Shown here one piece after another: positions 30,290-34,038 of a stretch of 34,038 nucleotides of DNA. The stretch is from Candidatus Cryptobacteroides merdigallinarum (GTDB lineage Bacteria; Bacteroidota; Bacteroidia; Bacteroidales; UBA932): NCBI GenBank assembly GCA_017694655.1, contig JADIMQ010000115.1, positions 1 to 34,038 on the forward strand, given 5' to 3'. The notes below the pieces were generated by a model, which searched no databases, was not told the DNA's origin, and saw only the letters and a program-made list of their open reading frames with translations. Numbering within the stretch: the stretch's first letter is position 1; each line of letters begins with the position of its first letter. The translations under genes and the position numbers were made by a program.

Positions 30290-30327
30290 AAAGGCTGTGT
30301 CGTGATCCAATCCGGCGCAGCCTTTTT
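30290..30327 (+). terminator. rho-independent-like terminator after rpsU
   Basis: AAAGGCTGTGTCG...CGGCGCAGCCTTT stem (with G-U wobbles) running into TTTTT. Confidence 0.75.
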
Positions 30328-30469
30328 CGTAAGCCCTATGCTCGCTTTCGAACGTCCACAGGACATTCTCATAAACCGCTCACGACCCCTATTAAACAAT
30401 CTCATTGCTTTTCCTCGTTACGCCTCGGTTAGGGGGATTAACCCTTCGGGTTTTCCTCCTTTTACATCA

Positions 30470-30496
30470 GGAATATCCGGACAGGTCCGGTATTCC
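30470..30496. repeat. near-perfect inverted repeat GGAATATCCGGAC-AG-GTCCGGTATTCC
   Basis: 12 bp stem with a single bulged base. Confidence 0.7.
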
Positions 30497-30533
30497 GTTC
30501 GGTCTGGCGTCGGTTTCGCACCTGCCCGGTGCG

Positions 30534-30552
30534 GTCCCTTCGGGACTTTTTT
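30534..30552 (+). terminator. terminator-like hairpin GTCCC-TTC-GGGAC-TTTTTT
   Basis: Perfect 5-bp GC-rich stem followed directly by six T. Confidence 0.65.
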
Positions 30553-30580
30553 GCTCTGCGCTCGGCTTCTGCGATATTTG
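30550..30580 (+). repeat. promoter-bearing repeat module, copy 1 (degenerate -7)
   Basis: TTTGCTCTGCGCTCGGCTTCTGCG + ATATTTG; identical 24-nt block to copy 2 with one base missing before the -7. Confidence 0.85.
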
Positions 30581-30628
30581 TACGCTTCGCGTCCACATAT
30601 ACTGTGGCGCCTCGGCATAGCAAATTTA

Positions 30629-30660
30629 TTTGCTCTGCGCTCGGCTTCTGCGTATATTTG
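30629..30660 (+). repeat. promoter-bearing repeat module, copy 2
   Basis: TTTGCTCTGCGCTCGGCTTCTGCG + TATATTTG. Confidence 0.85.
30630..30660 (+). promoter_or_regulatory. Bacteroidota-type promoter of the AsmA-like gene (TTG-N20-TATATTTG)
   Basis: TTG 30630-30632, 20-nt spacer, TATATTTG 30653-30660; ATG 30687 lies about 26 nt downstream. Confidence 0.7.
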
Positions 30661-30686: not shown

Positions 30687-33600
30687 ATGGAAAAGCGGAC
30701 TTCTCCGAAAAGAAAACGAATACTGAAAAAGGCAGGCATAGTCCTGCTATGCTTCATAGGGCTGTGGGCCGTGATACTGGCGGCGCTCCAGATTGCACTC
30801 ACCCCGGGTGTACTGACTAACCTGGCGAACAGGTACGCCCCGCAGTTCGTCGACGGCGATGTATCTTTCGGCAAAGTGAGGGCCTCTGTATTCAAGAGCT
30901 TCCCTTACCTCAACGTCACATTCGACAGCCTCTCCATAACATACCCTTCCGACAGGTTCGAGGCATACGGAGCCGGGAAAGACTGGTACACGAGCCAAGG
31001 CCGCGGGGAGACCTGCGACACCCTGATGTCATTCAACAGCCTTTCCGCCTCTGTCAACCTTTCGAGCCTGATAGCAGGACAGATAAACGTGCCGAGAATC
31101 CTCCTGTCCAAGCCGAGGATATTCGCCACGGCCTACAACGACAGCACGGCCACATGGAACATATTCAAGGGGCTCGGCGAGAGCGATGAACCGGAGGACA
31201 CTGTATCCGCAGGCATGCCTGACCTCGTGATCGGCAGGATCAGGCTTGTGGACAACCCGAGGATCGTATTCAGCAGCATACCCGACTCCACAAGCCTGTC
31301 GATGAGCCTGAAGAGGATGATCTTCTTCGGGAAAGTAGTCACCAGGGACCTGAAGAAAAGCCGGCTGGGACTGAAGGTCGACACGCTCTTCCTTACCGGG
31401 CGCTTCCCTTCGGACACGGTAGCCCTGAGGCTCGACAACTTCATGACCAGAGGCAAGGACAACGGGATTGAACTCAAGGCACTGGCGACAGCTTACCTTG
31501 CCATGAACTCCTACGGGAGGATGAAGCTGCCGGTTTCCATAGATTCCAGGATATCCTTCCCGAAGGACACGATAAGGAAGATTTCCCTGGAAAGGTTCGA
31601 CGTCAATTTCGCTGACATACCGCTTTCCGCACGTGCCGACATCGGCTTCAAGGGAGACAGCGTATATATCAAGGGAAATGCAAGGATAGACGGATGCGAG
31701 ATAACGAAGCCGATAGGATATTTCGGCAAGAACCTCGTGAAGGCAGCGGGAGCCATCAGGACCGACGCCGTCATAAGCATGTCTGCCGATGTCGACGGAT
31801 GGCTTGACTCTCAAGGACATATACCTGACATAGATGCAGTCCTGGAAATTCCGGTATCGAAAGTATCCCACAAACTTTTCGGCGAAGACAACAGGATAGG
31901 GCTGAAGGCAATCCTCAAGGGAGACCGTTCAGGCCTTGTGGACCTGCAGCTCGACAGCGTACTCGTGATAGGCAGAGGTATAGCCCTGGCAGGTGCCGGG
32001 AAGGCGCATGACCTGCTCGGGGAGGATCCCGCCCTCAGCGTGGACGGGCACTTCTTCCTGAATCTCGACACTCTTTCCACCCTACTGCAGAAAATGACAG
32101 GATACGCGGCGGCGGGCAGGCTGGCTGCGGAGCTGAACGGAGACATCAGGATGTCACAGCTCTCCCCGTACACCTTCGCCGACGCCGACCTGAAAGGCAG
32201 CGTGAAGAGCCGGGAAATGGTACTTTATTCCGAAAAGGACTCCATCGACATATACATCGACAGCCTGGACGTCAAGCTGGGGACCTTCGGGAACGTATAT
32301 ACCACAGGTGTAAGGAAAGGCGAACGGATGATGGCGGCAGCCGGGTATGTGGACAGCGTCAGGTTCAGGTACAAGGACGAGATGTCAGTGATGGGAAGAC
32401 AGCTGTCCCTGATGGCCCAGAATGCGGCAGCAGTACTTGACAAGGAAGACTCGTCCATGTTCTACCCGTTCGGGGGAAAGTTCAAGGCAGGATTCCTGTC
32501 CATGCGCGGAGCGGACACATCCGTCATAGTCGTGGCCAAGTCCGACAACACCTTCACTGTCAAGCCGAAGGAAAGCAATCCAGAGGTACCTGTGCTCGCC
32601 CTGGAAAGCAACACCGCCGGAATCTTCATAAAAGGCCCGGTGAACAGGCTGGCCGTGTCCGGGCTGCAGATGTCGGCAGATGCGGCGATGAACTCCATAG
32701 AAAGGAGGCACAGGGCGAAGGAATTCATGGATTCCCTCTACAGGGCTTACCCTGACATCCCGAGGGACTCCCTCTTCCGTTACCTCCGGAGGACAAGACC
32801 TGCGAGGGAAATACCGGAATGGCTCACGGAAGCCGATTTCAGGAAGAGAGACATCCGGCTCGATGTCGGGGAGAACATAAAGAAATATTTCAGGGAATGG
32901 GACATGGAGGGAAATATCTCGTTCAGGCGGACAAGCATACTTTCCCCTTACTTCCCGCTCCGCAACACCGTCCGGGACTTCAAGGGGACCTTCGACAACA
33001 ACAGCATAGCCCTGGAGAACATCACAGTGACGAGCGGCAGGTCCAACCTGTCGGCCAAGGGCTCCCTGACAGGCCTCAGGAATGTCATCCTCCGCAGCGG
33101 GTTCCTCAACCTCGACGTGGACGTGACTTCCGACAGCCTCGACATGAACCAGCTGCTGGCGACGTATTCCGCAGGAATGTCCTTCGACGCGGAGGATTTC
33201 GGGGGCAAGGACATGACCGGGATAGAAGATGACGAGTTCGAGGAAATGATAGTGGCGGACAGTACTGCCACAGAAGACACGCAGATGCTGCTGGTGATAC
33301 CGGCGAACCTCAACGCGGAGATAAGGCTCGATGCCCGGAACGTGAAGTATTCGAAGCTCGAGATGGAGACCATGACTGCAGACCTCGCGGTGAAGGAGAG
33401 GTGCGTCCAGTTCACGAACACCTCCGCATCCACGAACATGGGGAAACTCTTTTTCGAGGGCTTCTACTCTACCCGGACAAAGAAGGACCTGAAGACGGGC
33501 TTCAACCTTAATTTCTCGCAGATAACGGCGGAGAAGGTTATAGAAATGCTGCCGGCAATAGACACCGTGATGCCTCTGCTGAAGTCCTTCCAGGGGGAAC

Positions 33601-34038
33601 TGGATCTGGAAATGGCTGCCACTGCGGACATTGACACCACAATGAGTATCGAGATCCCTACCATCAACGGGGTCATAAGGATAGGCGGCAACCATCTGCG
33701 GCTGCACAATGACGAAAGCATAAAGAAGATAGCCAAGATATTGAAGTTCAAGGACAGGGAGAACAGCTACATCGACAAGATGTCAGTGGAGGGCGTCATT
33801 TCCGACAGCCGGCTCGAGATTTTCCCGTTCGTGCTCGAGATAGACAGGTACACCCTTGCCATGAGCGGGATACAGAACCTCGACTCCTCCTTCAAATATC
33901 ACATATCCGTCATCAAGTCCCCGCTGCCGTTCAGGCTCGGGATAGACCTGAACGGGAACTTCGAGGACATGAAGTTCAAGATAGGAAAGGCCAAGTACAA
34001 GAGCACCAATGTACCGGTGTTCACGGCCGCAGTGGACC
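30687..34038 (+). CDS. AsmA family protein (3' truncated by window end)
   Basis: MEKRTSPKRKRILKKAGIVLLCFIGLWAVILAALQIALTPGVLTNLANRYAPQFVDGDVSFGKVRASVFKSFPYLNVTFDSLSITYP; single N-terminal TM then long beta-rich sequence; not in the ORF track because no stop is reached. Confidence 0.85.
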   Translation, partial: MEKRTSPKRKRILKKAGIVLLCFIGLWAVILAALQIALTPGVLTNLANRYAPQFVDGDVSFGKVRASVFKSFPYLNVTFDSLSITYPSDRFEAYGAGKDWYTSQGRGETCDTLMSFNSLSASVNLSSLIAGQINVPRILLSKPRIFATAYNDSTATWNIFKGLGESDEPEDTVSAGMPDLVIGRIRLVDNPRIVFSSIPDSTSLSMSLKRMIFFGKVVTRDLKKSRLGLKVDTLFLTGRFPSDTVALRLDNFMTRGKDNGIELKALATAYLAMNSYGRMKLPVSIDSRISFPKDTIRKISLERFDVNFADIPLSARADIGFKGDSVYIKGNARIDGCEITKPIGYFGKNLVKAAGAIRTDAVISMSADVDGWLDSQGHIPDIDAVLEIPVSKVSHKLFGEDNRIGLKAILKGDRSGLVDLQLDSVLVIGRGIALAGAGKAHDLLGEDPALSVDGHFFLNLDTLSTLLQKMTGYAAAGRLAAELNGDIRMSQLSPYTFADADLKGSVKSREMVLYSEKDSIDIYIDSLDVKLGTFGNVYTTGVRKGERMMAAAGYVDSVRFRYKDEMSVMGRQLSLMAQNAAAVLDKEDSSMFYPFGGKFKAGFLSMRGADTSVIVVAKSDNTFTVKPKESNPEVPVLALESNTAGIFIKGPVNRLAVSGLQMSADAAMNSIERRHRAKEFMDSLYRAYPDIPRDSLFRYLRRTRPAREIPEWLTEADFRKRDIRLDVGENIKKYFREWDMEGNISFRRTSILSPYFPLRNTVRDFKGTFDNNSIALENITVTSGRSNLSAKGSLTGLRNVILRSGFLNLDVDVTSDSLDMNQLLATYSAGMSFDAEDFGGKDMTGIEDDEFEEMIVADSTATEDTQMLLVIPANLNAEIRLDARNVKYSKLEMETMTADLAVKERCVQFTNTSASTNMGKLFFEGFYSTRTKKDLKTGFNLNFSQITAEKVIEMLPAIDTVMPLLKSFQGELDLEMAATADIDTTMSIEIPTINGVIRIGGNHLRLHNDESIKKIAKILKFKDRENSYIDKMSVEGVISDSRLEIFPFVLEIDRYTLAMSGIQNLDSSFKYHISVIKSPLPFRLGIDLNGNFEDMKFKIGKAKYKSTNVPVFTAAVD

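Follow-up and report, generated by a model that had tools for sequence, protein, structure and literature searches.

The window, a 34,038-nucleotide stretch of DNA from a 2.33-Mb Cryptobacteroides-like MAG (G000; 135 contigs, 84.75% complete), carries 5' of an AsmA-like gene what is probably a two-unit array of a dispersed palindromic promoter repeat that spreads via a junction at the -7 box. A sequence-only reading had proposed a dispersed family that delivers ready-made promoters, and genomic comparison supported this proposal: the repeat has many copies, its 3' edge coincides with the -7 box, start codons on the same strand lie just downstream, and orthologous genes have a native promoter in some species and the repeat in others, joined at the -7 box. 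Since native signals are replaced across related species, the repeat looks as though it is spreading ready-made promoters.

In the window, an exact 24-mer occurs twice, at 30550-30573 and 30629-30652, with starts 79 bp apart, as had been reported from the letters alone. Copy 2 provides TTTG (30629-30632)-N20-TATATTTG (30653-30660), 26 nt from the ATG at 30687, consistent with the TAnnTTTG (-7)/TTTG (-33) consensus of the Bacteroidota primary sigma factor (PMC7366714). The claimed loss of one base from the copy 1 box, which reads GATATTTG, and the claimed inverted repeat AGCAAAT-TT-ATTTGCT (30619-30634) were likewise found. The features of the locus are as follows.

30513..30548, + strand: 3' end of module C, a second repeat family, with small hairpins CACCTGCCCGGTG and GTCCCTTCGGGAC; it abuts the first unit, and a ~35-nt segment recurs at 7 other G000 loci
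30550..30573, + strand: copy 1 of the 24-mer, a unit core with a TTTG -33 box (sequence and genome search)
30573..30580, + strand: GATATTTG, the copy 1 -7 box, one base short (continuing-unit class, in which only 14/49 have an intact -7 box)
30574..30602, + strand: hairpin B, ATATTTGTACGC-TTCG-CGTCCACATATAC, whose left arm is formed by the copy 1 -7 bases (compensated changes in 82 distinct hairpins)
30609..30645, + strand: hairpin A, GCCTCGGCATAGCAAAT..ATTTGCTCTGCGCTCGGC, which includes the inverted repeat and the -33 box of copy 2 (covariation across 62 non-redundant units)
30629..30652, + strand: copy 2 of the 24-mer, comprising the TTTG -33 box and a 20-nt spacer (sequence and genome search)
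30653..30660, + strand: TATATTTG, the intact -7 box and 3' edge of the repeat (conservation drop; consensus of PMC7366714)
30665..30668, + strand: predicted transcription start, placed by its distance to the -7 box
30687..34038, + strand: AsmA-like protein gene, presumably element driven, which runs off the window (weak DUF748 match below the cut-off)

Module C consists of ~105 nt of successive small hairpins, such as GTCTTTCTGCGAAAGAC, CCCCCTATTAGGGGG, and GTCCCTTCGGGAC, and lies within 30300-30548 in the window. It adjoins or sits inside promoter arrays in both orientations (L067, L075, L077, L078, L084, L087, and L088), and a longer upstream part of it is common to the window and L078.

The 24-nt module originally proposed proved too small, as the repeating unit measures ~77 bp. 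Tandem units are mostly spaced 73-88 bp apart, with a mode of 77, and the smallest recurrent copy of the repeat, ~50 nt, consists of a hairpin plus the promoter. From 5' to 3', a unit comprises a -7-like box, hairpin B, GCGCCTCGG, hairpin A, the spacer CTCTGCGCTCGGCTTCTGCG, and the next -7 box; each unit holds both hairpins and a complete predicted sigma-ABfr-type promoter. Hairpin A (AGCAAAT/ATTTGCT with a variable loop) contains the -33 TTTG within its right arm. Across 62 non-redundant units, with kin counted as independent, 97.9% of its cells were paired, compared to 91.1% on average and at most 92.3% after shuffling, and double changes were seen in 7 of 13 pairs. In hairpin B, the -7 bases pair with CATATAC. 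Among 82 distinct sequences, kin again being counted as independent, the first paired -7 position was T-A in 66 and C-G in 9, and the second was G-C in 64 and A-T in 9. UUCG loops are frequent in the covarying stems.

The predicted dispersal was evident from a genome-wide search, in which the 24-mer had 26 copies with ≤3 mismatches in G000, 8 of them exact. The reversed 24-mer, used as a control, had 0 copies in G000, and the repeat is thus not due to chance; CTCGGCTTCTGCGTATATT occurs exactly 25 times in this genome. Copies are dispersed and often tandem, and those close to genes terminate precisely at an intact σABfr -7 box, TATATTTG, which lies 20 nt past TTTG and ~27 nt before the ATG. Arrays are positioned at gene 5' ends, directed into the gene, and end at the -7 box of a predicted promoter. 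The start codon of a long same-strand ORF lies ≤200 nt downstream of 102 of the 112 arrays, at a median of 26-32 nt (14/17 arrays in G000, 53/58 among the matches listed in a GTDB scan, and 35/37 at other genus loci). An ATG is also present ≤200 nt away on the opposite side of 64/112 arrays, a backward count that includes chance ATGs. Thus, the orientation bias is by itself only modest, and the tight ATG distance is the stronger point. Genes 3' of arrays include greA, thioredoxin, trxB, ispF (YgbB), rsfS, cdaA (DAC), DUF2400, nucleoside symporter, GH3, and AsmA genes, and many of them are housekeeping genes.

The -7 box marks a sharp 3' edge. In 96 exit units, which lead into unique DNA, conservation fell from 1.62 bits at the terminal G of TATATTTG to 0.03 bits three bases on; array 5' edges are ragged and scattered over the unit. 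The search pattern that picked the loci lies entirely 5' of the -7 box, so the comparison of intact and broken boxes is unbiased by the box itself. TAnnTTTG was intact in 65/76 exit units compared to 14/49 continuing units (odds ratio 14.8, P = 2e-10, with related copies treated as independent), and the box was broken in 11/76 and 35/49, respectively. The window conforms to this pattern, with TTTG-N20-TATATTTG at 30629-30660 in its last unit. The broken forms are varied (ATATTTG, CAATTTG, TAATTTG, and TATATTCA), so they do not all descend from a single mutation. Of 44 arrays, 23 begin at a TAnnTTTG that follows unique DNA; TATATTTG at both edges of these arrays could reflect either target duplication or microhomology.

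Near-identical copies lie upstream of many unrelated genes and are present or absent at orthologs, the pattern that defines mobile promoters. The closest sampled relative of G000 by AsmA is G065 (85% protein and ~80% DNA identity; 97% complete; 26 copies), and the two genomes have 8 element loci in common. We compared 15 loci occupied in only one of them, each against its ortholog. At 8 of these, namely greA (L088), trxB (L079), L084, L068, L284, L260, L072, and L082, alignment covers the gene and 5' untranslated region as far as the -7 box and breaks off upstream of it. Among the compared pairs, some have upstream flanks so divergent that insertion and replacement look alike. The empty alleles at all 8 have a native TATATTTG or TATCTTTG in register with the element -7 box, the weakest cases being L072 and L082, where the register was read by eye over a poorly aligned leader. 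Three further loci (L081, L070, and L277) have an ortholog with a degenerate copy, and four (L076, L268, L085, and L272) are ambiguous. At L260/L344, the alignment extends over both flanks, and a native promoter of 35 nt stands opposite an array of ~230 nt. The AsmA gene carries the element in G000, G065, G372, and G134 and a native TAnnTTTG in several relatives, e.g., G349, G205, and G390. These comparisons show that the repeat has repeatedly replaced putative native promoters at orthologous genes, including greA, trxB, GH3, DUF2400, and 4Fe-4S protein genes, with the -7 box as the junction. Array length also differs between species at one locus whose flank is ~98% identical (L073 versus L095/L274).

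At the nucleoside symporter, L073 of G000 and L274 of G065 are 92-98.6% identical along a stretch, in species otherwise ~80% identical. This similarity suggests a recent exchange that carried the promoter array.

At least two copies were found in 44 of the 47 genomes nearest by AsmA, including three with partial AsmA matches, a clade grouping that is a reading of the AsmA protein similarity ranking and not a tree; the remaining 353 congeners yielded 5 genomes with one weak match each. G222, G270, and G380 have no copies, though they fall inside the element clade, and are candidates for secondary loss. Among the matches listed, the GTDB scan returned Cryptobacteroides, Egerieousia, Merdivivens, Coprenecus, Onthomorpha, Gallipaludibacter, and Muribaculum sp. 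An289. Even sampling of the order, covering 205 other genera, gave no match outside the genus. The copies in Bacteroides mentioned in the sequence-only reading appeared neither in this sample nor among the GTDB matches listed. The family marks one clade of uncultured gut bacteria, within which it has probably spread mostly vertically, with slow turnover continuing. Carriage by phage was considered and rejected, as neither of 2 viral-contig matches was followed by a unit.

RAYT genes are frequent (often 6 or more) in element-free Cryptobacteroides-like genomes and scarce or absent in the element clade. On contig 10 of G029 (L089/L300), two near-identical two-unit arrays flank a RAYT-like Y1 transposase gene. 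One of them is placed to drive this gene, which is followed by CCTTAGTAG-type repeats of its own.

Mobilization of a REP/REPIN-like element by a RAYT or another HUH transposase, with insertion 3' of TATATTTG and build-up of head-to-tail arrays, would account for the palindromic units, for a target, TATATTTG, that equals the element's own right end, and for the RAYT gene between two arrays in G029; the TATATTTG on both sides of about half of the arrays would also suit it, or any targeted insertion behind the -7 box. We nevertheless consider this origin unlikely. No RAYT match (E ≤ 1e-5) was found in G000, G065, G138 (95% complete, 54 copies), G134, G074, G076, or G124, whereas element-free congeners have RAYTs in abundance; only 1 of 30 protein-matched RAYT loci (L300-L329) is flanked by the element, and array 5' ends are ragged. 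RAYT mobilization, which looked strong at the G029 locus, does not hold as a general explanation.

The covarying stems and frequent UUCG loops would also befit an element acting at the RNA level, as a terminator, attenuator, or leader hairpins, with the promoter-like end secondary. This reading is quite unlikely, because the hairpin of a single unit lies upstream of the -7 box and hence outside that promoter's transcript, conservation stops at the -7 box and not in the leader, and the window has no Rfam match. It is extremely unlikely that unrelated promoters of a regulon converged on a transcription factor palindrome over the -33 box. Although the palindrome does overlap that box and many of the genes are housekeeping genes, convergence predicts no homology outside the operator, whereas the homology seen is extensive: the non-contact 20-nt spacer is near invariant and common to tandem units. 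This homology across non-contact bases led us to reject an operator; moreover, loops differ in length, changes in the arm sequences are compensated, and sister-species orthologs have unrelated promoters. Finally, an artefact of metagenome binning, conceivable for an 84.75% complete MAG, is refuted and has practically no probability, since the unit is also present in Muribaculum sp. An289, whose record carries no MAG label, and in numerous independent MAGs.

Under the preferred reading of a promoter repeat spreading via the -7 box, the last unit of an array would be the working promoter of the gene. Copying would join an existing repeat to the target's -7 box through the 8-nt microhomology TATATTTG, with template switching during replication, aided by the hairpins, as the probable route; tandem gain or loss of units would follow. 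The shared-box 3' edge, ragged 5' edges, lost native -33 side, and changes in unit number fit template switching or short-homology recombination plus slippage, and selection that retains working promoters would make the 3' edge sharper. When a new unit is added, the previous -7 box would become the left arm of hairpin B and would usually lose promoter function, such that one promoter stays active beside the gene; this silencing of continuing units is suggested by their broken boxes and compensated stems. Tentatively, then, the array may be self-renewing, each added unit recreating a working -7 box beside the gene and silencing the previous one by folding it into a hairpin, and a non-autonomous palindrome that recombines at the -7 box, conserved among genes, may be rewiring housekeeping promoters clade-wide without a transposase. 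Simple insertion 3' of a native -7 box that leaves the native -33 box in place upstream was rejected: few TTGs occur upstream of left-boundary boxes, with no clear preferred spacing, and at L260/L344 the native spacer is gone.

Judged by its architecture, the repeat appears to work like a promoter-bearing MITE or mobile promoter, and its closest kin are promoter-bearing MITEs and REPs. BrickBuilt of Porphyromonas gingivalis (PMC4596501) is likewise a dispersed, intergenic Bacteroidota element with tandem repeats and an outward promoter, which is predicted here and active there in lacZ fusions in E. coli. BrickBuilt has 23-nt tandem repeats between a leader and a tail, small inverted-repeat ends, and bidirectional promoters 49-591 nt from genes (PMC4596501); the present repeat has ~77-bp units, at a spacing that does not fit a 23-nt repeat, and a one-way predicted promoter at its 3' edge that lies ~27 nt (median) from the ATG, with a -7 box junction. 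Correia elements of Neisseria (reviewed in PMC10969869) are also small, dispersed, often directly upstream of genes, and promoter carrying, and their promoters are functional. They are ~204-bp MITEs with terminal inverted repeats, of which none stood out here, and the part of that review available to us does not describe replacement of target promoters at the -7 box. REPINs (PMC8049555) resemble the repeat in being palindromic, non-autonomous, intergenic, present in tens of copies, and vertically maintained; the repeat differs in ending in a promoter and in its many carriers without a RAYT match, and the lack of a cognate RAYT in G000, G065, G138, and others, with 1/30 RAYT loci flanked, places it outside the REPIN/RAYT system. 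Mobile promoters or promoter propagation, terms that occur in PMC8049555 and PMC9208149, likewise involve promoter-bearing repeats spreading in a genome; the present case differs in that the exact -7 junction, the pattern of broken internal boxes, and the clade history are resolved. A literature search, with most subscription journals outside its reach, returned no description of this repeat. As far as our searches reach, a repeat that joins exactly at the -7 box, ends 3' in a one-way predicted promoter, and forms arrays with mostly only the last box intact appears undescribed.

That promoters evolve by capturing mobile sequences has mostly been deduced from isolated examples. In this clade of ~47 sampled species, many pairs of occupied and empty promoters with an exact -7 junction are available, housekeeping genes included, and Muribaculum sp. 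An289 is a named strain record with the unit that is usable for experiments. This system would allow the frequency of wholesale promoter swaps to be measured and would allow one to ask whether a hairpin that swallows the -7 box silences old promoters in an array.
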